The notes below the pieces were generated by a model, which was given only the letters and a program-made list of their open reading frames with translations, ran no database searches and had not been told where the DNA came from. From Leptolyngbya sp. PCC 6406 (GTDB lineage Bacteria > Cyanobacteriota > Cyanobacteriia > Phormidesmidales > Phormidesmidaceae), in assembly GCF_000332095.2 (NCBI RefSeq), contig NZ_KI913949.1, positions 4,612,769 to 4,676,768 of the forward strand: a stretch of DNA of 64,000 nucleotides, given 5' to 3'. How positions within the stretch are numbered: the stretch's first letter is position 1; each line of letters opens with the position of its first letter. This document shows, piece after piece, positions 7,015 through 63,869 of the stretch. The translations under genes and the position numbers were made by a program.

Positions 7015-7837
7015 AGAGAATTTGTTCGAGTCCGTAAATCAAAGACTTAAGGGGCAAAATACGGCGGATTGCCAGCAGTACCCCCGGCATGTAGCAGGCG
7101 CGATCGCTGGTGTCATGGCGCAGGGTATAGAGTTGCCCTGGAGCCCCAAACAATACCTCCTGGTGGGCGATCAATCCGGGTAGGCGCACACTATGGATAC
7201 GAATACCGTCGGCAGTAGTGCTTCCTCGTGCCCCCGCCAGCTTTTCGGTCTCTTCTACCTGGGGCGAGTTATAGGTCTTCTTCAACCCTTGCAACATTTG
7301 TGCGGTTTGCAACGCCGTTCCACTGGGGGCATCAGCTTTTTGGTTGTGGTGCAGCTCAATAATCTCTACATGCTCAAAGTATTGGGCCGCCTGAACTGCC
7401 GCCTGTTGCAGCAACACCATGCCAATGGAAAAGTTGGGAATAATCAGACAGCCAATGCTGGCCTTTTCAGCAAACTCTGCCAGATCCTGCAACCGTTCAG
7501 GGCTGAGGCCCGTGGTGCCGACAACGGGACGGACACCGTATGCGATCGCAGCCCGCACCGACTCATACACCGTGCCGGGATGGGTGAAGTCCACCATCAC
7601 CCCCAGCCCTTCACTCTGGGCCATCACCAAGGCAGCCTCCAGATCGGCGGTGATAGGCACCTCCACCGGACCACAGCCCACCACCTCGCCGATATCTTCT
7701 CCCTGTACGGCAGGATTCTTATCAATCGCACCCACCAGGGTCATATCCTCTGCCTGGGCAACTGCTTTAATCACCTCACGGCCCATTTTGCCGCAGGCTC
7801 CGTTGACAACAATAGGAATAGTGACTGGTGCTGCCAT
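7013..7837 (-). CDS. dapB: 4-hydroxy-tetrahydrodipicolinate reductase
   Basis: Reduces hydroxytetrahydrodipicolinate with NAD(P)H in the diaminopimelate/lysine pathway, feeding both peptidoglycan and lysine. The N-terminus has the Rossmann motif [12 protein letters not shown], followed by [12 protein letters not shown] and the substrate loop [13 protein letters not shown]. Full length at 274 residues. It is flanked by map on the same strand about 200 bases upstream, with an independent upstream region. Confidence 0.95.
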
Positions 7838-32377: not shown

Positions 32378-33271
32378 TTAGTCAACATAGCGCCGGAACG
32401 ATGCCCCAATGTCAGGCTGCTCCGGAATGCCTAGATCTTGACAAACAACTCGAAATCCCAAGTCATCATGCCCATCCTCTGCATCATCTGGAGCCCGAAA
32501 CGCCGATCGACAATTTGCGACAACATCATGCCAGGAGCCACCACGAATCACTCGTCGAGTTGAATCTCCATCCCAAATCCAGGCTGTACCATCGGTTGGA
32601 GCGCCATAGTAGTTGACATGCCAATGATCTACACACCATTCGTAAACATTGCCATGCATATCGTACAACCCAAACGCATTGGCGATCCCAAAGCTGCCGA
32701 CGGGGGTTGTCTGCTTCCCATATTTTTGGATCTTACTGCCTCTCGCTTGACTGTTGTAATTTGCCGCCGATCGATTGAGGACATCTCCAAAATGAAATGG
32801 GGTAGAAGTTCCAGCACGACAGGCGTATTCCCATTCTGCTTCGCTGGGGAATCGATAAGAACGACCTGTTTTGGCTACTAGTCTTTCACAAAATTCGATC
32901 GCTTCAAACCAGGAGATTTGCTCAACTGGATAATCAGCTCCCCGGTGGCAGGCGGAAATTGGCTCTAGTTCATCATGAATTAAAGGGAGATCAGCGATCG
33001 CTCTCCACTGAGCCTGTGTCACCAAAAACTTACCCATCCAAAAACCATTCACGGCCACAGGATGTTGAGGTATTTCATCTGGGGAATGCTCTATTTCATC
33101 AGGAGTAGCCCCCATTAAAAACGATCCACCTGGAATCCAAATTAATTCTAGATTGACTCCCAGTGCCAGTTTTTCCGTGAAACAGATTCCAGTATGGCGA
33201 GCAGAGTCGCTGACTTGACCCAATCCGTTGAGATAAACCGTCTCAAACTCAAAGGACGTTACGCCTGTCAC
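32378..33271 (-). CDS. Formylglycine-generating-enzyme-like (SUMF1/FGE) domain protein
   Basis: 297 residues with one FGE-sulfatase domain: IPGGSFLMGATPDE, GFWMGKFLVTQAQWRA, RFPSEAEWEYACRAGT, NAFGLYDMHGNVYEWC and VIRGGSWHDVVANCRSAFR. The C-type-lectin-like fold serves in formylglycine generation, EgtB-like oxidations or as a binding module; the paired active-site Cys of true FGE are not evident. It is the last gene of the thrS operon, starting one base after its neighbour. About 25 residues extend past the fold. Confidence 0.82.
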   Translation of the reverse strand: MTGVTSFEFETVYLNGLGQVSDSARHTGICFTEKLALGVNLELIWIPGGSFLMGATPDEIEHSPDEIPQHPVAVNGFWMGKFLVTQAQWRAIADLPLIHDELEPISACHRGADYPVEQISWFEAIEFCERLVAKTGRSYRFPSEAEWEYACRAGTSTPFHFGDVLNRSAANYNSQARGSKIQKYGKQTTPVGSFGIANAFGLYDMHGNVYEWCVDHWHVNYYGAPTDGTAWIWDGDSTRRVIRGGSWHDVVANCRSAFRAPDDAEDGHDDLGFRVVCQDLGIPEQPDIGASFRRYVD

Positions 33272-51538: not shown

Positions 51539-52522
51539 ATGCCCAAAGCCAAAGCCCGTAACTCCAAAGCCAAGCCCCTCTTCACCGCCGACGCTGTGCG
51601 CACCTATCTCCACGAGATCGGGCGGGTACCTTTGTTGACCCACGAACAGGAAATTGTATTGGGCAAGCAGGTTCAGCAGTTCATGACCCTGCTAGATCTG
51701 AAGACGCAAATGAAGGAGTCCCTCGGCCAAGACCCCAGCGATCAGGAATGGGCCGGGGCGGCACATTTGGATACAGCCACCCTCACTCAGCAACTGCACG
51801 AGGGGGAGCAGGCTAAGCGTCAGATGATTGAGGCCAATCTGCGCCTCGTGGTTGCGATCGCGAAAAAGTACCAAAAGCGCAACCTAGAGTTCCTCGACCT
51901 GATTCAGGAAGGCACCCTGGGACTAGAGCGAGGCGTGGAAAAATTTGACCCCATGAAGGGCTATAAATTCTCCACCTATGCCTACTGGTGGATTCGGCAG
52001 GCCATCACCCGAGCCATCGCCCAGCAGGCCCGCACCATTCGCCTACCCATCCACATCACCGAAAAGCTCAACAAAATCAAGCGGGTTCAGCGGGAACTCT
52101 CCCAAACCCTGGGGCGCAGCGCCACGGTGGGGGAAATCGCTGAAGCCCTAGAGCTAGAGGTGACCCAGGTACGAGAGTACCTAACCATGGCCCGTCAGCC
52201 CATTTCCCTAGATGTCCGCATCGGCGACAACCAAGATACGGAGCTGCAAGAGCTGTTAGAGGATGACACCGCCTCCCCCGAAGACTTTACCGTGCGAGAG
52301 TCCTTGAAGCAGGATATCCAAACCCTGTTGGCGGAGTTGACCCCCCAACAGCAGGAAGTCATCACCCTGCGCTACGGCCTCAACGACGGTAACGAGCTGT
52401 CTCTAGCGAAGGTGGGCAACCGCCTCAATATCAGCCGAGAACGGGTGCGCCAGCTCGAACAGCAGGCCCTCAAGCACCTGCGCCGCCGCAAGGCCAATGT
52501 GCGGGCCTATCTGGCCAGTTAA
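51539..52522 (+). CDS. Group 2 RNA polymerase sigma factor (sigma-70 family)
   Basis: 327 residues with regions 1.2 (DAVRTYLHEIGRVPLLTHEQ), 2 (ANLRLVVAIAKKYQKRNLEF, GYKFSTYAYWWIRQAITRAI), 3 (LPIHITEKLNKIKRVQREL) and 4 (LTPQQQEVITLRYGLNDG, NISRERVRQLEQQALKHLRR). It lacks the long region 1.1/non-conserved part of a primary factor, so it is group 2. I cannot tell SigB, C, D or E apart from this. A 17-residue basic head precedes region 1.2. Confidence 0.92.
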   Translation: MPKAKARNSKAKPLFTADAVRTYLHEIGRVPLLTHEQEIVLGKQVQQFMTLLDLKTQMKESLGQDPSDQEWAGAAHLDTATLTQQLHEGEQAKRQMIEANLRLVVAIAKKYQKRNLEFLDLIQEGTLGLERGVEKFDPMKGYKFSTYAYWWIRQAITRAIAQQARTIRLPIHITEKLNKIKRVQRELSQTLGRSATVGEIAEALELEVTQVREYLTMARQPISLDVRIGDNQDTELQELLEDDTASPEDFTVRESLKQDIQTLLAELTPQQQEVITLRYGLNDGNELSLAKVGNRLNISRERVRQLEQQALKHLRRRKANVRAYLAS

Positions 52523-52530
52523 TCGCCCCT

Positions 52531-53922
52531 TTAGGCTGCCCCAATCAGCCCCTCTAGGGCGGTTTGTAGATCCTGGGTGAGGTCGGCGACGGCTTGACGA
52601 CGACTTTGGCGGTAGGCCGGAATGCGATCGCTCACGGATAGGGGCGTCCCGACCGTGAGCTGGGCTACTTGAAGCCCGAGATAGGGGCGGGGAAAAGGAT
52701 TTTCCCCCTTGATCAGGGTCAGGGTGTCCCTCAGCAGCAGCAGAGTTTCTGCAAAGCGTTCAACGGTGGGTTTTTCCCGTACATACTGACCCGTGACCGC
52801 CACAAAACTTTCCACCAATCGCATGTGCCACATACGGAGGGAGGCTTCTTCGGCAATACGGTCGGCGAGGCCCCGTTCTACCGTCGAGAGGTGCCGGTGA
52901 TCGCGGAGTTCCTCCCGATAGATCCAGTCCCACCCCGCCTGCTCAATACGACGGCAGCGATCGATGACGCTGCCCTTACCCGGAAGCTGAAAAAAGGCTT
53001 CCGCTACCCCCAAGGCGGTGTCTAGTAGGGTTTGCAGCCGTTGGGCCAGATCTGCCCCTGCCGAGTCCTCGGTTCCCTGGGCAATGGGGGCGTGGTAAAA
53101 GTCGCGGTAGTACCCCTCCATCAGCGTGAGCAAATGGTTTCCTAGGGCAATCAAGCGGGGATAAAGGGCACGCACCTCTACCGCCGCCGTGGCTGGGGTC
53201 GGGGATAGTGGAGCCGCCGTCGGGGTCAGGCCGCAGTCTCGCTCTAGGGTGGTGAGTAACTCCCCGAGAGCGGTCCAGGGGGGTGTCTGGTACAGATAGC
53301 GAATCCCCAGGGGAACAATTACTACGGTCTCGGTGCGATCGCACTTTTGCAAATCTTCGGCACACCAAAAGCCAAACTGGGCAATTCCCGGCTCTAGGGG
53401 GCTAATGATCTCGGTGTGGCCATTGTTGCCGCCTTCAGGGGCCGCCGCCAGGGGAAATTGTCCCTGGGCAAAGAGCTGGCGAACGGACTTGAGGCCCTGA
53501 CGATCCACCTTACCCCGCTGGATGGGGGTGCCCCCCAGTTTACGGTAGAGCCAGCCCACCCCCCGACCGGCCCAGAGGGGAATGCCGCGATCGTAAATGA
53601 AATGGACATGGGGAATGGCGGTTAGGGGAATGCCCAGTTGCTTGGCCACTCGGGGCATTTCACACCAGATCAGGTGACCCAGACAATAGGCGTCTTCGGG
53701 GCTGGGATGGCGAAAGGCAATCAGAAACCGCACCTGCTGGTTTTGGAAGTCTTGAAACAGCCGCACCAAGGTCTCGGTGCCCTCGATGTGGACGGTTTTG
53801 ACGCTACTGCGCCAGCGCATCCATAGGGGCAGTAGGGTCTTAACCAGCCAATGGACCTTGGCATCAAAGGCGGGGGGTAGAAATTCTAGGGGAGGCTGAG
53901 CACCAGTGGAGGAGGGGGCCAT
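52531..53922 (-). CDS. 1-acylglycerol-3-phosphate acyltransferase-like protein
   Basis: 463 residues. The acyltransferase block has the H-x4-D motif in FRHPSPEDAYC, GVGWLYRKLGGTPIQRGKVD, and APEGGNNGHTE for the glycerophosphate-binding motif. The variant motifs are those of the long PlsC-like enzymes of cyanobacteria, which acylate lysophosphatidate in membrane lipid synthesis. The C-terminal 250 residues are helical and of unknown role. It converges on the sigma gene with an 8-base gap. Confidence 0.82.
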   Translation of the reverse strand: MAPSSTGAQPPLEFLPPAFDAKVHWLVKTLLPLWMRWRSSVKTVHIEGTETLVRLFQDFQNQQVRFLIAFRHPSPEDAYCLGHLIWCEMPRVAKQLGIPLTAIPHVHFIYDRGIPLWAGRGVGWLYRKLGGTPIQRGKVDRQGLKSVRQLFAQGQFPLAAAPEGGNNGHTEIISPLEPGIAQFGFWCAEDLQKCDRTETVVIVPLGIRYLYQTPPWTALGELLTTLERDCGLTPTAAPLSPTPATAAVEVRALYPRLIALGNHLLTLMEGYYRDFYHAPIAQGTEDSAGADLAQRLQTLLDTALGVAEAFFQLPGKGSVIDRCRRIEQAGWDWIYREELRDHRHLSTVERGLADRIAEEASLRMWHMRLVESFVAVTGQYVREKPTVERFAETLLLLRDTLTLIKGENPFPRPYLGLQVAQLTVGTPLSVSDRIPAYRQSRRQAVADLTQDLQTALEGLIGAA

Positions 53923-53956
53923 GGCAGGGGCAGGGGATATCTGAAGGCTCGAAATT

Positions 53957-54787
53957 CTAGGGTTTGGACGTTAGGGGCCGAGGACGAAATAGATGGGTGT
54001 GTTCAGGATTGTAAAGTCGCGATCGCGCTGGAGCAGCCCGCAGCGCAGGGCTAATCACATACAGCGTCGTGCGAATTAGATCCCGCTGCCGCGTCACAAC
54101 CGCCATTTCCGCCAGGGTCGTCAGGGCAATCACCTCGTCCGGCCACCCCAAACGATAGCAAATAGCCACCGGGGTATCGGCAGGGTAATGGGCCAGTAGC
54201 TTAGCCTGGGATGCCTCTACATGGCGAGCACTGAGATAGAGGCAGAGGCTGGCTTGATGGGCAGCTAGGGAAGTCAGTTCCTCCGCCTCCGGTACCTGAG
54301 TGCGGCCACTGATGCGGGTGAGGATAATAGACTGCACCAGCCCCGGCACCGTCAACTCCACCTTCAGCTTGGCAGCAGCAGCCTGGAAGGCGCTGATACC
54401 GGGAACCACTTCAAAAGGTACCGCCGCTGTCGCCAGCAGATCCATCTGTTCGTGGATAGCACTGTAAAGGCTGGGATCCCCAGACTGGAGCCGCACCACC
54501 GACTTACCCGACTGCACCCGCTCCACCATCAGAGGCACAATGCTCTCCAGCGTCAGGCTGGCGGTGGCGATTCGCTCTGCCTCGGGGCGGGTCCAGTCCA
54601 GCACCTGCTGAGGCACGAGGGAATTGGCATAGAGAATCACATCGGCCTGCTGCAACAGCCGCAGCCCCCGCAGCGTCAGCAGATCCGGATCCCCTGGCCC
54701 TGCCCCGACGATGTAGACCCCAGGGGTCAGGGCACTGGGGACCGGGGACTCGGTCATATCGGGAATGGACTGGAGAACTGGGGGCAT
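53957..54787 (-). CDS. cobM: Precorrin-4 C11-methyltransferase
   Basis: SAM-dependent enzyme of the corrin ring pathway. Tetrapyrrole methylase motifs: VYIVGAGPGDPDLLTLRGLR, LQSGDPSLYSAIHEQMDLL, PGISAFQAAAAKL and LYLSARHVEASQAKLL. 276 residues from 54787; ATG 54757 is an equally possible start. No other cobalamin biosynthesis gene is adjacent. The corrinoid-binding-like protein at 27102 is distant. Confidence 0.92.
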   Translation of the reverse strand: MPPVLQSIPDMTESPVPSALTPGVYIVGAGPGDPDLLTLRGLRLLQQADVILYANSLVPQQVLDWTRPEAERIATASLTLESIVPLMVERVQSGKSVVRLQSGDPSLYSAIHEQMDLLATAAVPFEVVPGISAFQAAAAKLKVELTVPGLVQSIILTRISGRTQVPEAEELTSLAAHQASLCLYLSARHVEASQAKLLAHYPADTPVAICYRLGWPDEVIALTTLAEMAVVTRQRDLIRTTLYVISPALRAAPARSRLYNPEHTHLFRPRPLTSKP

Positions 54788-54843
54788 CTATAAAAATTCA
54801 GAAAAAATTCAGAGTTTCGCAAAACCTCTCCTTGGATTAAGGG

Positions 54844-54979
54844 GGCATCAACGTAAGCCGAGACAATATTGGTTCCGAGGAATTCAGGAATCAGGAGTCA
54901 GAATCCAGTACTCTCCTAGATTCTGGCTCCTAACTTCTAACTCCTCCCCAAGAGATTTGTCCCGCTTTGAGCTGATACC
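54844..54979 (+). repeat. MITE-like element M2, copy 3
   Basis: 136 bp, direct match to 26907-27042 along its whole length, including both terminal inverted repeats and the heptamer interior. Confidence 0.85.
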
Positions 54980-55022
54980 CGATTAAGGAGAGGTATCAAG
55001 AACAGCGAGGATATCCAGAGGG

Positions 55023-56174
55023 TTAGGCAGACAACACTTTCTGAGCGGCGGTCAAGCCTGCACCGGGACTAAAGCCCTCGGCTCCGAGACTGGCCAGCGT
55101 AGCCTCTAGGGCACTAACGGCGGTCAGGATATCGCGATCGCACACAAAACCCAGGTGCCCCACCCGAAAGATTTTTCCCTTCAGATGGTCTTGGCCCCCG
55201 GCCAGAGCAATGTCAAACCGCTTCCGCATAGTGGAGCGAATCTGCTCCGCCTCAACCCCCTGGGGCATGACGGCAGTGACCGCTGGACTGGCACAGTCAT
55301 CTGCGGCAAACAGCGGTAGGTTCAGGGCGGTCATCGCGGCGCGGGTAGCCTGTTGCAGTCGCGCATGGCGGGCAAAGATGGCCTCTAGCCCCTCCTCCCG
55401 CATCATCTTCAAGGCCACCTGGAGCGCAAAAAAGAGGCTCACGGGCGGCGTAAAGGGAGTGGTGTTTTTGGCCCCATCCTTGCGATAGGCGGCAAGGTCA
55501 AAGTAAAACTTGGGCAAATTTGAGGTTTTCTGGGCAGCCCAAGCGCGATCGCTCATGGCCACAAAGCCCAATCCGGGCGGCACCATATAGCCCTTTTGGG
55601 AACCAGAAGCCACCACGTCGAGCCCCCAGGCATCCATAGGAACACTACAGGCCCCCAAACTGGTGACCGCATCCACCACCATCAGCGCTTCCCCATGGGC
55701 TTTCACGAGTTGGGCAATGGCTTCCAGGTCGTTGATCACGCCAGCGGAGGTTTCGCTGTGGGTAACAATGACGGCTTTGATGGACTTTGCCGCATCTGCC
55801 TCTAGGGCGGATTGGAAGGCAGCGGGCTCTAGGGGTTTGCCCCACTCCGCTTCAACGGTGTCCACCTGTAGTCCATAGGCGCGGCAAAGCTTGGCCCAGC
55901 GATCACCAAATTTGCCATTGCTGCCCACCAAAACGCGATCGCCGCTACTGAGAACATTGATAATGCCCGCTTCCATGGCCCCAGTGCCGCTGGCGGTCAC
56001 CATCAACACGTCATTTTGGGTTTGGTGTAGCCACTTCAGGTTTTCGGTGATATCCGCCATGATTTGGCTGAACTCACCACTGCGGTGGCCAATGAGGTGC
56101 TTGGCCTGGGCCAGCAAAACGCTTTCAGGCACCGGGGTCGGTCCCGGAATCATCAGCATAAATTTGTCATCCAT
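55023..56174 (-). CDS. Class V PLP aminotransferase (alanine/serine-glyoxylate type)
   Basis: 383 residues: MIPGPTPVPESVLLAQAKHL, HRSGEFSQIMADI, TASGTGAMEAGI, VVDAVTSLGA and the PLP Lys in GSQKGYMVPPGLGF. Close relatives in cyanobacteria were long mislabelled soluble hydrogenase 42-kDa subunit. The likely reaction is transamination of glyoxylate in photorespiration, with alanine or serine as donor. Substrate preference cannot be told from sequence alone. Confidence 0.9.
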   Translation of the reverse strand: MDDKFMLMIPGPTPVPESVLLAQAKHLIGHRSGEFSQIMADITENLKWLHQTQNDVLMVTASGTGAMEAGIINVLSSGDRVLVGSNGKFGDRWAKLCRAYGLQVDTVEAEWGKPLEPAAFQSALEADAAKSIKAVIVTHSETSAGVINDLEAIAQLVKAHGEALMVVDAVTSLGACSVPMDAWGLDVVASGSQKGYMVPPGLGFVAMSDRAWAAQKTSNLPKFYFDLAAYRKDGAKNTTPFTPPVSLFFALQVALKMMREEGLEAIFARHARLQQATRAAMTALNLPLFAADDCASPAVTAVMPQGVEAEQIRSTMRKRFDIALAGGQDHLKGKIFRVGHLGFVCDRDILTAVSALEATLASLGAEGFSPGAGLTAAQKVLSA

Positions 56175-56461: not shown

Positions 56462-56789
56462 CCCCAATATCGGTCACCCCTGACCCACCCCGCCCTTCGG
56501 GCACCCCTCCCAAGAGGGGATGGTAGGAAGAGGTTCCTTGAGCACAGCCAAGGGATGGCCCCTACGGAAATAACCCCAACACCCCTGCAAGAGCGAGCGC
56601 CGCTCGCCCCTACCCACCCCAATACCGGTCATCCCTGACCCACCCCGCCCTTCGGGCACCCCTCCCAAGAGGGGATGGTAGGAAGAGGTTCCTTGAGCAC
56701 AGCCAAGGGATGGCCCCTACGGAAATAACCCCAACACCCCTGCAAGAGCGAGCGCCGCTCGCCCCTACCCACCCCAATACCGGTCATCC
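56462..56789. repeat. 155-base tandem duplication
   Basis: Two nearly identical 155-base units (56462-56616, 56617-56771) plus the start of a third, each opening CCCCAATA and containing ACCCCGCCCTTCGGGCACCC. Confidence 0.9.
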
Positions 56790-56969: not shown

Positions 56970-57671
56970 TCACCAAGTTCTCGGCTGGAACCGATCATCG
57001 TTCAAAATCTCCACCGTCTCCCCCGACTGGGCCAAGACAAACAACCCCTTGCGATAGGCATAGCGGGCCACCTCCTGCGGCACCACCATCCCCGCCACTG
57101 CACCCATAGCCTGCACATCGCTGTAGCGGGGCATCAATTGCTTGAACTTCGCGAGTCGCTCTAGGTGCTCATCCACATCCCCTTGAGACAGCTTGCTTTT
57201 CACTTCCACGAGGATAGCTTCGGTGGTGTTGACCACTAGGAGGTCGATCTCAAACCCCGCGTCACCCCGCTGGATCGACACCTCCGGCAGGATTTCATGA
57301 ACTTCAATACCCCGCTGTTGAAATAGGCGCAACACCGCAGGCCGCACTTGCCACTCCACGAATTCCCCCAAGCGGTTGCCCAGTTTGCCGAGTTCCTGTT
57401 GCAGTTGTTTCATGCGGCGATCGTTCTCTTCTACTTGCAGGCGGAACTTGCGATCGTTCTCTTCTACTTGCAGGCGGAACTTGCGATCGTTCTCTTCTAC
57501 TTGAAGATGGAACTGGCGATCGGTTTCTTTTTGAGCGTCGGACAGCTCTTTTTGCGCGTCGGACAACTCTTTTTGAGAGTCGGACAGCTCTTTCTGAGAG
57601 TCGGACAGCTCTTTCTGAGAAATTGCCAGTTCATTCAGAATCCGCCAAATGTCATCGGTGGTGGTGGCCAT
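56970..57671 (-). CDS. DUF3782-like coiled-coil PD-(D/E)XK nuclease-fold protein
   Basis: 233 residues. The N-terminal half is an extended coiled coil built of tandem units: SQKELSD/AQKELSD five times, then ENDRKFRLQVE three times. The C-terminal half has a nuclease-like core, FEIDLLVVNTTEAILVEVKS, with D...ExK spacing. Such proteins are abundant in cyanobacteria and unassigned. It is divergent from the NACHT-FGE gene across 218 bases. The coding repeats suggest length variation between strains. Confidence 0.78.
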   Translation of the reverse strand: MATTTDDIWRILNELAISQKELSDSQKELSDSQKELSDAQKELSDAQKETDRQFHLQVEENDRKFRLQVEENDRKFRLQVEENDRRMKQLQQELGKLGNRLGEFVEWQVRPAVLRLFQQRGIEVHEILPEVSIQRGDAGFEIDLLVVNTTEAILVEVKSKLSQGDVDEHLERLAKFKQLMPRYSDVQAMGAVAGMVVPQEVARYAYRKGLFVLAQSGETVEILNDDRFQPRTW

Positions 57672-57889: not shown

Positions 57890-60800
57890 ATGGCGCAAGT
57901 TTGGTTGATGCTGCTCTGGTTGATTGCGCCCGTAGAGGCGATCGCACTGACCCCGCCATCCTTGGCCATGCCCCTCCAAGTGGAGCCCAGTCCCATTGCC
58001 TGGGGGGCTAGTCGCCGCCCCCTGGCCCAGTTGCCCCCCAATCCCCCGCCTTGGCTACAGGCCCACCCCACCCTGACCAAAGCACTGGCCACTGTCGGCG
58101 GCTTCGCCCTGGTCTACCTGCTGGCGCTGGGGTTCACGCCCCGTTGCCTACTGTGGCTCCCCGGCCAACTCAAAATCCCCAATACCCCTATTGACCTGCC
58201 CATCGGCCTCCTGCTGTGGCTGAAATACCGACCCCGCGTCTTGGATTGCTGGGTGGCGGATGTGCTGCCCGAAGTGCGGGCCACCTTTCTCCGGATGCCC
58301 ACCGTCGAGGCTCGCACCATCCACATCCCGATCCAGATCTGGCTGGATGGCCAGCCTGTGGATCACCTCACCCCGGCGGATCTGCGGCCCCGGTTCCAGC
58401 ACTCTGCCCCTTGCCTACTGTTGGTGGGAGAGGGAGGCGTGGGTAAAACCAGCCTCGCCTGCCAGATTGCCCGCTGGGGGCTAGGGCCAGAAAAGACCTC
58501 CGGCCAGCGCCAGCGCCAGCGCCAGCGCCAGCGCCAAGACCATTCCCCCGCCCTGGCTCCCTACCGGATGGTGCCAATGCTGATCGAGCAGGAATTGGGC
58601 GATACCCCCCTGCTCACCATCCTGCAAACCCAACTGCCCCGCACCGCCGACGGCAGCTTCATTGCCGAGGAACTGCTGATCGCCCTACTGCGCCAGCGAC
58701 GCATTTTGGTGATTTTGGACCATGTCTCAGAGCTGAGCGACGAGGGCTATCGCGCCCTGCAAGCTGCCCTCGACGCGACCCCCATCAATGCCCTAATCAT
58801 CACCTCTCGCCTGCCGGAAAAAGCCCTGGGCCGCGCCGCCCCCCATGTCTTGGAACCCCGCAAGATCGAGGGAGAACACCTCTCCAGCTTTATCCAGCCC
58901 TACCTAGAGGCCCAGGACAAACGCAATCTGTTTGAAGACGACGGCGAATTTTTTAGCGCCTGCACCCGCCTGTCGCGGATGATGGCCGCCACGCTGCAAA
59001 AGGCCACCGCCCTGCTGGTGCGCCTCTATGTGGATCAAATTATCGATGTCGGCGGCCTGAAAACCGCCCAACTGCCAGACAACATCCCGGAGCTAATGTT
59101 GCGCTACCTGTGCTGGCTCAATCGCCCGGAACAGATAGCCGCCCCCCGCCGCTGCGACAACGATACCCTGCGGCGGGATGCTCAGCTTGTGGCCTGGGAA
59201 TGCCTGCGGGCCACCTACCGCCCTGCCGCCGCCCCCCGTACCGCCGTCCTAGCGGCCCTCACCGCCGCTGACCCCGGTACCGCTGCCGAACGTCTTGCCT
59301 ATCTGCAAGCACCCCTGGGCTTGGTGCAAACCTCTCTAGGGGAAACCACGGTGCGCATCGTCCTCGATCCGGTGGCGGAATACCTGGCGGCCTTGCAGGT
59401 GGTGGACTATTGCCAAGGCACCGATCTGGACTCCGGTTGGCAATTGTTTTTAGAAACCGTGGATGCCGAACCCGAAAATATTGCCGCCATGCAGGGCTTT
59501 TTGCTGGCGGTGCGGAACTGCTGTGAACCCCACCGCAAGCAGTTACCCGCAGAGGTGCTGGAGGGGCTCAACCAACGGGCGGAGCTGGACGAGGTGGCCC
59601 TGGAGCAGGCACGGCGACGGCAGCGCATCAGCAAGCTGATCGATGACCTCTACGACAACGATGACCGCTACCTGACCCAGGCCATTGATAACCTGCGCCA
59701 GGAGGGCATCTATGCTGCCAAGGCCATTCCTGATCTGGTGAAGGTGCTGACCTCTCCCCAGCAGGAAACCCCGGTGCGCGTTGCCGCCATGACCGCCCTG
59801 ATGGCGGTGCAGGGGGATATCTCGGCCCTGGAGACCCGGTTGCGCCAGTGCCTTGGCCATCGCCGCGACGTGCCAGAGGTGCGGGTGGCGGCGATGCAAA
59901 ACCTGGTGCAGTTGGCCCTACGGCCAGCCCAGAATGCCACCCTAGGGACGCAGATAAAAACGCAGATAGAAACGCCAGTAGGGACAGATCCCGGTTGTGT
60001 GCTCCTCCTGGAGCAGGTGTTTGGCGACGAGACGGAGGTGGGGGTGGTGCGGGTACAGGCGGGGGAAGGGCTGCGGAAGCTGGGCCACCTGAGCGATTTG
60101 CTGGTGGTGACGGTGACCGATGCCCACCACCAAACCATTGCCCTGGTGCCGCCACCCCCCAGCCACACGGTAGATCTGCCCGGTGGGGTGACCCTAGATC
60201 TGGTGCAAATCCCCCCTGGGGAGTTTTGGATGGGCTCAGATCCAGAGGAAGAGGGTAGCTACAGCGATGAACAGCCCCGCCACCGGGTGACGGTGCCGGA
60301 GTTTTGGCTGGGTAAGTTTGCCGTCACCCAAGCCCAGTACGAGGCGGTGATGGGTCGCAACCCAACCTATTTCCCTGGGCAAGACAATCCGATGGAAGGT
60401 GTTTCATGGCATGATGCTATCGCTTTCTGCGAAAAACTCTCGACAGTGACAGGACAAATATTTCGCCTACCCAGTGAGGCTGAGTGGGAATATGCCTGCC
60501 GTGCAGGCACAGAGACACCGTTTCACTACGGGCTAACGATCACTACAGAACTTGCCAACTACTGTGGGACCGATGAGATACAGGGTAATAGCATTATTAG
60601 CGGATCCTATGGCCCCGGCCCAAAAGGAACCTATCGTGAGCGAACGCTATCCGTAGGACAGTTTCCTCCTAATGCTTTTGGTCTCTACGATACACATGGC
60701 AATATTTTAGAGTGGTGTCAAGATCCATGGCATAACAATTATGAGGGAGCACCCACAGATGGGAGTGCTTGGATAGAGGGACAAAACCACAGTAACAGAA

Positions 60801-60916
60801 GGGTTTTACGCGGTGGAGCATGGCTTGACGCTCCAAGTACCTGTCGTTCAGCTTGTCGAGTTACCTACGTATATACCCAACGATTTCACACCGTTGGGTT
60901 TCGGGTGTCCTGTTGA
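57890..60916 (+). CDS. NACHT/STAND NTPase with HEAT-like and FGE-like domains
   Basis: 1008 residues. A hydrophobic N-terminus and a membrane helix (about 66-84) precede a STAND NTPase: Walker A LLVGEGGVGKTSL (180-188), Walker B RILVILDHVSEL (Asp 277), and a GxP-like helical region. A Gln-Arg repeat (206-216, from a CAGCGC hexamer repeat) interrupts it. HEAT-like helices follow (about 630-750), then an FGE/SUMF1 C-type-lectin-like domain (765-1008; GEFWMGSDPEEEG, PSEAEWEYACRAGTETPFHY, LRGGAWLDAPSTCRSACR). STAND proteins often sense invaders or stress. The last 170 codons are visibly AT-richer than the rest. Confidence 0.85.
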   Translation: MAQVWLMLLWLIAPVEAIALTPPSLAMPLQVEPSPIAWGASRRPLAQLPPNPPPWLQAHPTLTKALATVGGFALVYLLALGFTPRCLLWLPGQLKIPNTPIDLPIGLLLWLKYRPRVLDCWVADVLPEVRATFLRMPTVEARTIHIPIQIWLDGQPVDHLTPADLRPRFQHSAPCLLLVGEGGVGKTSLACQIARWGLGPEKTSGQRQRQRQRQRQDHSPALAPYRMVPMLIEQELGDTPLLTILQTQLPRTADGSFIAEELLIALLRQRRILVILDHVSELSDEGYRALQAALDATPINALIITSRLPEKALGRAAPHVLEPRKIEGEHLSSFIQPYLEAQDKRNLFEDDGEFFSACTRLSRMMAATLQKATALLVRLYVDQIIDVGGLKTAQLPDNIPELMLRYLCWLNRPEQIAAPRRCDNDTLRRDAQLVAWECLRATYRPAAAPRTAVLAALTAADPGTAAERLAYLQAPLGLVQTSLGETTVRIVLDPVAEYLAALQVVDYCQGTDLDSGWQLFLETVDAEPENIAAMQGFLLAVRNCCEPHRKQLPAEVLEGLNQRAELDEVALEQARRRQRISKLIDDLYDNDDRYLTQAIDNLRQEGIYAAKAIPDLVKVLTSPQQETPVRVAAMTALMAVQGDISALETRLRQCLGHRRDVPEVRVAAMQNLVQLALRPAQNATLGTQIKTQIETPVGTDPGCVLLLEQVFGDETEVGVVRVQAGEGLRKLGHLSDLLVVTVTDAHHQTIALVPPPPSHTVDLPGGVTLDLVQIPPGEFWMGSDPEEEGSYSDEQPRHRVTVPEFWLGKFAVTQAQYEAVMGRNPTYFPGQDNPMEGVSWHDAIAFCEKLSTVTGQIFRLPSEAEWEYACRAGTETPFHYGLTITTELANYCGTDEIQGNSIISGSYGPGPKGTYRERTLSVGQFPPNAFGLYDTHGNILEWCQDPWHNNYEGAPTDGSAWIEGQNHSNRRVLRGGAWLDAPSTCRSACRVTYVYTQRFHTVGFRVSC

Positions 60917-61290
60917 ATTTAACGGGTGACAAGAGCACTCAATGCCTACGGTACAGGGCTTTTGACGCAATCCGGCCCCATCCCGGTGATGGCCGGGGCA
61001 GGTTTTGAGCGTACCCTTGCCCCCAGGTATCGACAACGATCGGTCAAACCTGCCCCTACGGGGATATCATTCGACCCACATCCCGCCATCAAAACCCGCC
61101 CTACCCATGACCACCACCATTCCGATCTTGATCATCGGCAATCCGGTCCCTTCCCGGTGGTGGCCGGGGCAGGTTTTGAGCGTACCCTTATCCCCAGGTA
61201 TTGCCAGCGATCGGCCAAACCTGCCCCTACGGGGATGTCACCCCACTGTCCCACCCCTTACGGATGGGACTTTATTTGTGTGCAAATCCC
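60917..61290. other. Intergenic region with direct repeats
   Basis: 374 bases dominated by the duplicated block listed at 60967-61240. No gene supported. Confidence 0.6.
60967..61240. repeat. Two direct repeats about 100 bases long, 171 bases apart
   Basis: Units at 60967-61065 and 61138-61240 open GCAATCCGG and share GGCCGGGGCAGGTTTTGAGC and AAACCTGCCCCTACGGGGAT. Each unit can fold on itself through GGGGCAGGTTT/AAACCTGCCCC. Confidence 0.85.
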
Positions 61291-62517
61291 TTACGTCCCC
61301 AGAGATTGCCCCGCTAGCCACCCTGTTGTCCAGGCGCTCTGAAAGTTAAACCCCCCCGTCACCCCGTCGATGTCTAGGATTTCCCCGGCCAAAAAGAGGC
61401 CGGGGCAGCGGCGGCTCTGGAGCGTCTTGAAGTCCACCTCCTCCAGTTTGACCCCGCCACAGGTGACAAATTCATCCTTAAAAGCCCCTTTGCCCTGTAG
61501 GGCATAATGCCCCTGATGCAATTCCGTCACCAGACGATTGAGCCCAGCTTTGGGTAGATTGGCCCAGGTCAGGGTTTCCGCCAGGTCTGCCCGTGCCACC
61601 AGATAGCGCCAGAGTCGCCGGGGCAGGTCTACCGGACTGGAAGTTGCGATCGCACGTTTGGGAGTCTGCTGCCGCATAAGTTGTAGTGCTTCACGCAATG
61701 CCTCTAGGGACATATCGGGCAGCCAGTTGATCGTTAGTTCCCCTCGATAGCGCTGGTCGTGCAGCAGCCGTGCGCCCCAGGCGGAGAGTTTGAGCACCGC
61801 TGGCCCACTCAGACCCCAATGGGTGATCAGCAGCGGCCCCGACTGGATCAGGGGTTTACCGCCAACCACCGTCAATTTCAGATCTACGGGCTCCACCGCC
61901 ACCCCCGCCAAGGCACGTAAGGCACCATCGGGCACTGTAAAGGTAAACAGGGAGGGAACAGGGGACTCAATAGTGTGGCCTAGGGCAGCGGCAATGCGAT
62001 GGCCCTGGAGACTGCTGCCCGTCGCTAGGAGAATGCGATCGCACTCCAGGACTTCCCCAGCCCGCAGATGCACCGTGAAGCCGACCCCTTGGCGCTGGAC
62101 CGATTGAACGGCAGCCCGCGATCGCACCCGTACCCCTAACCGTCGCGCCTCCCCCTCTAAACAGTTGATGATGGTTTCCGAGTCGTCCGTGACCGGGAAC
62201 ATGCGCCCATCAGCTTCCACCTTCAGCTTGACCCCCCGTGTCTCGAACCAGGCCACCGTATCCCGAGGCTGAAAGCGGCTGAAGGCTCCCCGCAGGGCTT
62301 TTCCACCCCGAGGATAGTGGGGCACCAAGAGGGCCGGGTCAAAGCAATGGTGGGTGACGTTGCAGCGCCCACCCCCGGAAATACGGACTTTGGCTAGGGG
62401 ATCCGTCGCCGCCTCTAGCAGCACCACCCGCGCCTGGGGATGGGCCTCGGCAGTTGCGATCGCACCAAAGAAGCCCGCCGCGCCGCCCCCGATCACCACA
62501 ACATTGAGGGTTTTCAT
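61291..62517 (-). CDS. HI0933/BaiN-type flavoprotein
   Basis: 408 residues. Rossmann FAD site VVIGGGAAGFFGAIA, the family signature KVRISGGGRCNVTH, LLATGSSLQGHRIAAALGH and the C-terminal LFLAGEILDIDGVTGGFNFQ. Members are NAD(P)H-dependent flavin reductases of mostly unknown substrate. Full length and alone on the strand apart from the GNAT gene 45 bases upstream, with which it may be cotranscribed. Confidence 0.9.
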   Translation of the reverse strand: MKTLNVVVIGGGAAGFFGAIATAEAHPQARVVLLEAATDPLAKVRISGGGRCNVTHHCFDPALLVPHYPRGGKALRGAFSRFQPRDTVAWFETRGVKLKVEADGRMFPVTDDSETIINCLEGEARRLGVRVRSRAAVQSVQRQGVGFTVHLRAGEVLECDRILLATGSSLQGHRIAAALGHTIESPVPSLFTFTVPDGALRALAGVAVEPVDLKLTVVGGKPLIQSGPLLITHWGLSGPAVLKLSAWGARLLHDQRYRGELTINWLPDMSLEALREALQLMRQQTPKRAIATSSPVDLPRRLWRYLVARADLAETLTWANLPKAGLNRLVTELHQGHYALQGKGAFKDEFVTCGGVKLEEVDFKTLQSRRCPGLFLAGEILDIDGVTGGFNFQSAWTTGWLAGQSLGT

Positions 62518-62561
62518 CAGCCCACAAACCTCACCTAGGCAAACGGGGCAGGATTAGCCTA

Positions 62562-63083
62562 TCAGCCGTCTCCCCGTCCTTGAGAACTCAAACGTAAAAA
62601 CTCAGGCCGCAGGATCGACATAATTTCCGCCGAGGCAAACCCCTCAGAAGTTTTGATCGACTCCCGCAGACAACCCTCCGTAACAAACCCCAGGGTTTGA
62701 TACAAGTGGCGGGCGCGATCGTTAGTTGTGACCACATCCAGCCACACTCGGTGAGCCTTGAACTCATGGAACGCACGACATAGCACCTGAATCAGGGTGG
62801 CCCGTCCATAGCCCTGTTCCTTTGCCGTAATCACTAAGCGCTGGATCAGCAGACTTTGGTCTGGGTTTTTCACCCCTACCAAGATGACATAGCCCACGGA
62901 CTCCGCTTCGGCATTCATCACAATCCAATGGCGCTCGTCAGGATGAGTACAAGCCTGCCAATGGCGCTCCCTGGTCCATTGGCGAATAAAGCAGGCATTC
63001 TCCGCCGCCTGCTCCGCTGCCCGCACAAAGGCCAGATCCGCCTCAATCGTAGGCCGTAGGGTAATGGATGCGGTAGAGATCAT
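62562..63083 (-). CDS. GNAT-family N-acetyltransferase
   Basis: 173 residues with the RimJ/RimL-like GNAT fold: ITLRPTIEADLAFVRAAEQA, GYVILVGVKN, RLVITAKEQGYGRATL (acetyl-CoA loop Q-x-x-G-x-G/A) and NDRARHLYQTLGFVTEG. It acetylates an amine on a protein or small molecule, target unknown. It lies between the solute-binding gene and the flavoprotein. Confidence 0.87.
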   Translation of the reverse strand: MISTASITLRPTIEADLAFVRAAEQAAENACFIRQWTRERHWQACTHPDERHWIVMNAEAESVGYVILVGVKNPDQSLLIQRLVITAKEQGYGRATLIQVLCRAFHEFKAHRVWLDVVTTNDRARHLYQTLGFVTEGCLRESIKTSEGFASAEIMSILRPEFLRLSSQGRGDG

Positions 63084-63128
63084 TTGTCATGGAGATAGCG
63101 ACTACCCATACCCCCCTAAAAGAAAACC

Positions 63129-63869
63129 CTAAAAGGGATAGCTCCTGTAGGGAATCCACTGCGCCCAGAGCTTTGCCAGAGTGCCATCAGCAATTAGACC
63201 ATTGAGGGTATCATTTAACGCCTCCAGCAGTTCCCGGTTTCCCGGCAACACCCCCACCCCAAAAGGCCGCTGAGTGGGAATCTGAAACGCCACCCGCAAG
63301 CTTGTATCCTGGGCCTCCGCCGCCATTAGCACCAGCTCATCCTCCATAATGGCGTCGATGCGTCCCTGGCGGAGGGCATTCAGGAGGGTTTCAGGGATCG
63401 GGTCATCGCAGCTAAAGGGCACCATCACCACATCAGGCGGAAAAACCTCCGCCAGAGTATGGCTGGTGCTGCCGCTCAAAATGCCCAACTGCCGACCGCT
63501 GAGGTCTTCCTTGCGGGTAATGGGGCTTTCTTCCCGGACCAACACTGCTGTGTCAAAGCGGCCATAGGGCCGAGTAAAGTCGGCCCAAGCTCGCCGCTCT
63601 TGGGTAATCGCTTGATTGAACCAGACCACGTCATGCTGACCCTTACTCAGCTCTAGATAGAGCTTTTGTAAGGGCAAGGCACACCAGACCGGTTCTAGGT
63701 TGAGGCGTTTACATACGGCCCGAGCCACAGCGGGCTCATAGCCCATCCACTCACCGCCATCAACAAAGCTCATGGGACGAGCTTCAATGGCGCTGGTGAC
63801 GATGCGAAGCTGACCGGGCTCGACGGTAATGGACTCGACTGCGGTAGGCACGCTCAGCAAATAGCTCAC
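63129..63869 (-). CDS. Amino-acid-type (SBP_bac_3) solute-binding protein without signal peptide
   Basis: 246 residues with the polar-amino-acid binding fold: LRIVTSAIEARPMSFVDGGE, GYEPAVARAVCKRLNLEP, GQHDVVWFNQAITQERRAWA and FGVGVLPGNRELLEALND. Start is GTG. The frame continues upstream to 63939 without a better start or a signal peptide, so export is not shown. No transport partner is seen. It could be a sensor-like or truncated protein. Confidence 0.8.
   Translation of the reverse strand: MSYLLSVPTAVESITVEPGQLRIVTSAIEARPMSFVDGGEWMGYEPAVARAVCKRLNLEPVWCALPLQKLYLELSKGQHDVVWFNQAITQERRAWADFTRPYGRFDTAVLVREESPITRKEDLSGRQLGILSGSTSHTLAEVFPPDVVMVPFSCDDPIPETLLNALRQGRIDAIMEDELVLMAAEAQDTSLRVAFQIPTQRPFGVGVLPGNRELLEALNDTLNGLIADGTLAKLWAQWIPYRSYPF

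Follow-up and report, generated by a model that had tools for sequence, protein, structure and literature searches.

The gene at positions 57890-60916 of the window (the whole 64,000-nt stretch of Leptolyngbya sp. PCC 6406 DNA that we analysed) probably encodes a frozen sensor of the DGR type, a membrane-anchored, NLR-like STAND protein acting as a one-gene system. Its single open frame on the + strand specifies 1008 aa, in which a membrane-anchored STAND NTPase is followed by NCH4, a HEAT-like spacer and a tail of the FGE/C-type-lectin (CLec) type. The central feature, which an earlier sequence-only reading of this DNA did not contain, is a DGR-type variable region (VR) at the C-terminus of the FGE domain, with 12 relatives in the same genome. 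The gene belongs with DGR targets by architecture and descent, and it is not a live target by any test made here; apparently, its tail can no longer be rewritten. Since the VR has no template match, the hairpin found 3' of several related genes is missing, the base composition of the tail is deviant and the reverse transcriptase (RT) of the genome is interrupted, the sensor is most likely fixed in this strain, as a retired or imported specificity.

The first 20 residues of the protein are hydrophobic and signal-like in sequence, and a hydrophobic, probable transmembrane helix covers residues 60-81 (58067-58132, +), as indicated by the sequence, a low-confidence model helix and its alignment in relatives. 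The Walker A motif or P-loop GEGGVGKTS (residues 180-188; 58427-58453, +) and a Walker B-like motif, ILVILDHVSE (residues 272-281; 58703-58732, +), contain residues that are invariant in a seven-member alignment of the focal family (E181, G182, G183, G185, K186, T187 and S188 in the former, D277, H278, S280 and E281 in the latter). Slightly behind the P-loop, at 58503-58536, lies a six-base coding microsatellite (GCCAGC x5.7, encoding RQRQRQ), the length changes of which would stay in frame and which is missing from the aligned relatives. Further on, we located the NACHT C-terminal helical domain 4 (NCH4; residues 527-567; 59468-59590, +; PF22731, 6.5e-11), a HEAT-like helical spacer seen as model helices (residues ~592-730; 59663-60079, +) and the FGE-sulfatase/C-type-lectin-type domain (residues 770-1006; 60197-60907, +; PF03781, 1.3e-50), which also matches PvdO, TvpA and FGE structures.

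An AlphaFold model built from 7 sequences (mean pLDDT 64.8, below 50 in the VR region) was usable for the STAND and helical parts and poor in the FGE tail. Its best PDB fold matches were NOD2 and NLRC4; next came PvdO and TvpA, which match the tail, and Avs4 ranked lower. The protein thus combines a P-loop NTPase core with a C-terminal helical domain, as STAND NTPases and bacterial NLR-like proteins do; no known N-terminal effector domain, nuclease or other, was detected in it. The P-loop, the NCH4 domain and the NOD2/NLRC4 folds bear out the STAND NTPase recognised by the sequence-only reading. Of the NACHT-HEAT-FGE fusion that it described, the FGE part is certain, while in the focal protein itself the Pfam matches for NACHT and HEAT stay below the cut-offs: AAA_16, NB-ARC and NACHT match weakly around the P-loop, and HEAT is sub-threshold, HEAT_2 passing at the equivalent place in relatives.

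The clear homology of the tail to FGE and PvdO could mean that the domain is an enzyme, a formylglycine-generating or other oxidase tethered to a regulatory STAND protein. However, human FGE carries two cysteines in GGSYMCHRSYC, which we take to be the catalytic pair, and the aligned focal segment, GGAWLDAPSTC, has only one of them, so that the domain lacks the complete active site of a formylglycine-generating enzyme. The position of the replaced cysteine corresponds to a variable N in DGR templates, and relatives are diversified there. We therefore regard an enzymatic role as extremely unlikely.

Relatives of the same architecture are bona fide DGR targets elsewhere, as VR-TR matches in cis in two genomes and with another contig in a third demonstrate. 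Homologues of the N-terminal 760 residues occur in 20 of 143 genomes, the home genome counted. The orthologues in G007 and G047 belong to VP-Avd-RT-TR cassettes in cis (Avd NF033474, RT PF00078), and the second-closest relative, the G068 orthologue (57-59% identity), has the TR that its VR matches on a different contig. Mismatches between VR and TR fall at template A in 10/10 cases for G007 (P 8e-7), 18/19 for G047 (P 2e-11) and 12/12 for G068 (P 3e-9), these hypergeometric values treating mismatches as independent in pairs that were chosen for similarity. By descent of its architecture, the focal protein is accordingly a member of the DGR variable-protein family. No template could be matched to the orthologues in G051, G019, G045, G062 and G070, which is weak evidence given the draft state of several of these assemblies. 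That same-architecture relatives are diversified in this way, as published for STAND-CLec proteins (PMC10907252), supports the earlier view of a STAND protein with a variable C-terminal sensor in the style of conflict systems.

With the focal protein as query, the home genome yielded 13 full FGE matches, several of which end long ORFs. A search with an NNN-rich, template-like peptide returned two template repeats and 13 VR-like tails, including the focal one. Scans of genome contigs gave nothing, or FGE domains only. The template TR1 lies on contig C3 beside Avd (NF033474) and an RT, in a DGR that comprises Avd, RT, TR1 and two targets (L013:6860-10607). Each of these targets differs from TR1 by 14 nt, 14/14 at template adenines. 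The second template, TR2, is a gene-less relic at C1:1592254. These are the only two TR-like sequences found in the home genome, whose assembly is nearly complete (99.96%).

The RT of this DGR is split by a 468-nt insert (L013:8347-8814), its first 192 codons being in one frame and the remainder in another. The insert is transposon-like: its 15-bp ends are perfect inverted repeats, and 8 bp of the target, CCCTGCTG, are duplicated. None of the other RT matches in the home genome was seen beside Avd and a TR. Avd is present and no intact DGR RT was found in this genome, with some doubt left by 100 nt that are masked inside the insert, at L013:8498-8597. Separately, a 659-aa RT ORF on contig C2 precedes a 92-aa ORF that is Cas2-like by eye (L021:1781-4038), and may represent a CRISPR-associated RT.

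Not all of the home tails trace to these templates. Two targets on C2 (L015:5137-5235 and 7190-7288) match the template of a different genus, G051 (L100:3265-3363), with 15 and 17 differences, all at A. No template of this kind was found in the home genome, and the match suggests transfer or loss of DGR parts. Three chromosomal proteins (L016, L017 and L018) comprise two caspase-FGE proteins and one NACHT-GUN4-FGE protein. When their VRs are compared, 20 columns vary, of which 18 fall on codon positions 1-2. This is the pattern expected of DGR writing, and all three VRs appear to derive from a single template, which the assembly lacks. A solitary FGE ORF of 297 aa within the window (32378-33271, -) has a VR-like tail that matches no template; it shows 29 non-adenine mismatches to TR1 and a GC3 of 0.41 throughout.

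The VR equivalent of the focal gene, RGGAWLDAPSTCRSACRVTYVYTQRFHTVGFRV (60809-60907, +), differs from TR1, the nearest home template, at 45/99 positions, 25 of which are not at A. In an active DGR, VR and TR differ nearly only at template adenines, and the focal VR does not show this pattern. As its source, TR1 and TR2 were rejected on at least 25 non-adenine mismatches, the templates of relatives on 25 non-A mismatches for the best of them, and a template deduced for the three chromosomal VRs on 50 mismatches, 20 at A. No sequence in the loci examined templates the focal VR with fewer than 18 violations, where controls score 0-1, and the match with 18 mismatches, in Dulcicalothrix, is an A-rich chance match. 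NNY codons at 11/13 template-N positions of the focal VR (p = 0.03) lend weak support to a DGR past of the tail. This past is otherwise suggested by homology, as the present VR is underivable from any known template; the gene could also have acquired a tail that never was a DGR target.

Several VR genes are followed, past their stop codon, by an imperfect inverted repeat, CTATAGTACTTTTGCACTAT, whose loop is TTTT. It occurs 13 times at up to one mismatch in 388 genomes of the class, the reversed control pattern giving 0, and not at all in viral contigs. A two-mismatch search added a site in G062, bringing the total to 14 (L218, L220 and L222 on C1; L215-L217, L219, L221 and L223-L228). At 13 of the 14 sites, which come from several genera, an FGE VR read in frame precedes the repeat, its GFR codon being 39-63 nt away; the remaining site has an out-of-frame VR-like sequence before it. 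Four sites are at focal orthologues (G051, G045, G062 and G070) and three at home chromosomal genes, namely the two caspase-FGE genes and the NACHT-GUN4-FGE gene. The focal gene itself ends in GFRVSC with the stop codon directly behind, and the sequence-conserved hairpin of the family is not in the window, where a short fold of another sequence reaches -4.9 kcal/mol. The BPP-1 DGR requires a hairpin 3' of its VR, and phage DGR hairpins have GC-rich stems and GRNA loops (PMC3240598), whereas CTATAGTACTTTTGCACTAT is AT-rich with a TTTT loop; judging by its sequence and position, it is a candidate DGR target element or just a common flank.

One could still suppose that the focal gene is a live target in trans of a DGR whose template and RT escaped detection. 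The target in G068 has its template on another contig, remote targets have been described in cyanobacteria (PMC7517822), and the three chromosomal home VRs are likewise without a template. Against this stand the completeness of the genome with its two TR-like sequences, the interruption of the sole RT in a DGR context, the missing family hairpin and a VR identity of 54/99, which passes only a loose 50% criterion. We consider such a live target improbable.

The tail also departs from the rest of the gene in composition. GC3 drops from 0.75 to 0.40 at ~60398, over the last 172 codons (60398-60916, +); six other home FGE genes that we compared have a GC3 of 0.60-0.71 there and no such break. The break therefore points to a swapped tail. 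Rather than decaying, the gene could have received its distal FGE half by recombination from an FGE gene that never was under DGR control, replacing a DGR-controlled tail, in agreement also with the missing hairpin and 3' tail. However, no donor was found in the 388 genomes, where the best DNA matches reached 71-73% and included the G051 orthologue, and protein identity to orthologues over residues 836-970 (62-66%) is not lower than elsewhere. We hold a domain swap of this kind to be a serious, if somewhat doubtful, alternative.

The sequence-only reading had proposed that the focal gene forms a conflict system with the divergent ORF 218 bp away, a coiled-coil, PD-(D/E)XK-like protein of 233 aa (56970-57671, -). 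In such a pair, the neighbour would serve the STAND sensor as effector nuclease. The divergent ORF is there, but its nuclease-like character is barely substantiated: its match to PDDEXK_10 reaches 21.6 bits against a cut-off of 21.2, and it is best described as a weak PDDEXK_10/DUF3782/NERD-type protein with coiled-coil repeats. The pairing itself did not hold up. The neighbour belongs to a multicopy family, with six other copies in the home genome (four 70-93% identical, two 43-44%) and ~16 matches in G070. At the loci of ~15 genomes with focal homologues, only G070 has such a gene nearby; it is absent beside the closest orthologues (G051, G068 and G019), some of these contigs being short. 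Being multicopy and near a focal homologue in G070 only, the gene is best seen as a chance neighbour outside the unit, and a two-gene system, already largely refuted, is highly unlikely in spite of the divergent arrangement, the weak nuclease match and the homologues near the G070 orthologue.

Repeats do flank the two genes on both sides, as had been noted, and they do not both delimit a patch. On the left is an intergenic 155-bp tandem duplication (56462-56771, +; x2, 99%). On the right is a 103-nt direct repeat pair of 90% identity starting at 60967 and 61138 (60967-61240, +); it is related to a dispersed genomic repeat, with relatives at seven other places in the home genome, and therefore marks no boundary. 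Housekeeping-type genes occupy 51539-56174 and 61291-63869, with no defence island; the surroundings include a sigma factor, an acyltransferase, an aminotransferase, an HI0933-like flavoprotein, a GNAT and a solute-binding protein.

A survey of neighbours around homologous fusions, envisaged in the sequence-only reading as a check on a link to defence, spoke against a shared defence context: except for DGR parts and generic kinases, focal orthologues have no neighbours in common and no common defence island. PADLOC gave no match for the focal protein or the G051 orthologue. Its PD-T4-6 kinase matches near two orthologues are generic Ser/Thr kinases, to which we gave no weight. A strong PsyrA match, which likewise carried no weight for us, lies together with an ORF that looks RecQ-like by eye ~2 kb from the G070 orthologue (L067:1883-5269).

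Since the orthologues are without common defence neighbours, a non-defence signalling role is possible for the focal protein. It might be a regulator of cyanobacterial signalling or development, its tail being DGR-tuned in some strains. The gene is solitary and the neighbourhoods are of the housekeeping type, and regulation has been proposed for cyanobacterial DGR targets (PMC7517822). The STAND-CLec architecture, on the other hand, fits conflict and cell-death systems better, as do the caspase-FGE and NACHT-GUN4-FGE paralogues in the home genome, and we consider a regulator rather unlikely.

As a frozen sensor, the focal protein may, by analogy with related families, recognise a ligand. Its FGE tail would bind a phage, foreign or kin-derived protein, nucleotide exchange would then open the STAND core and let it oligomerise at the membrane; the response would come from the membrane segments clustered in this way or from a partner that is recruited.

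DGR-diversified STAND NTPase-CLec proteins have been published as putative antigen sensors (PMC10907252), and, in conflict systems of cyanobacteria, an association of FGE tails with DGRs has been described (PMC7159879). The closest parallels are the DGR 3 and DGR 6 sensors of Thiohalocapsa PB-PSB1 (Dore et al. 2024, PMC10907252), which likewise have a central NACHT/STAND part and a C-terminal FGE/CLec tail, theirs carrying the VR, and of which membrane-placed versions are described. The focal gene differs from them by its NCH4 domain and HEAT-like spacer and by standing alone, without TR, RT or Avd; its VR is underivable from any template found. The cyanobacterial DGR targets reported in 2020 (PMC7517822) resemble the home set in their dispersed CLec paralogues, varied N-terminal domains and plasmid-borne DGRs; the text of that study does not use the word NACHT, and the focal VR fails the adenine test. 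VMAP ternary and related conflict systems (Kaur et al. 2020, PMC7159879) are also cyanobacterial and have DGR-linked FGE (FGS) tails, but consist of vWA-MoxR-VMAP clusters, of which nothing lies next to the focal gene. Avs and bNACHT antiphage STANDs share the STAND core with a C-terminal sensor, whereas the characterised members have other sensors and the focal protein no detected known N-terminal effector. Treponema denticola TvpA, a solved DGR-type variable protein, and PvdO have the FGE fold of the focal tail and no NTPase domain.

With the focal gene, an already described class gains one further member. It has been proposed that STAND sensors diversified by DGRs may provide bacteria with adaptive immunity, and the home genome holds, side by side, template-exact sensors, sensors whose template is missing, one that matches nothing and an interrupted RT. 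We put forward, tentatively, that cyanobacteria keep sensors of the conflict type, namely FGE proteins linked to STAND, caspase or AAA domains, that were written by DGRs and then frozen, as a 'memory' beside writable ones. A sensor may freeze when its template or its 3' hairpin is lost or when the RT takes up an insertion, and the hairpin ~40 nt behind the VR may mark a cross-genus class of addressable genes from which the focal gene has dropped out. With a family that spans orthologues with a DGR in cis, with a DGR on another contig and with none, this genome makes the writing versus the fixing of specificity open to test.
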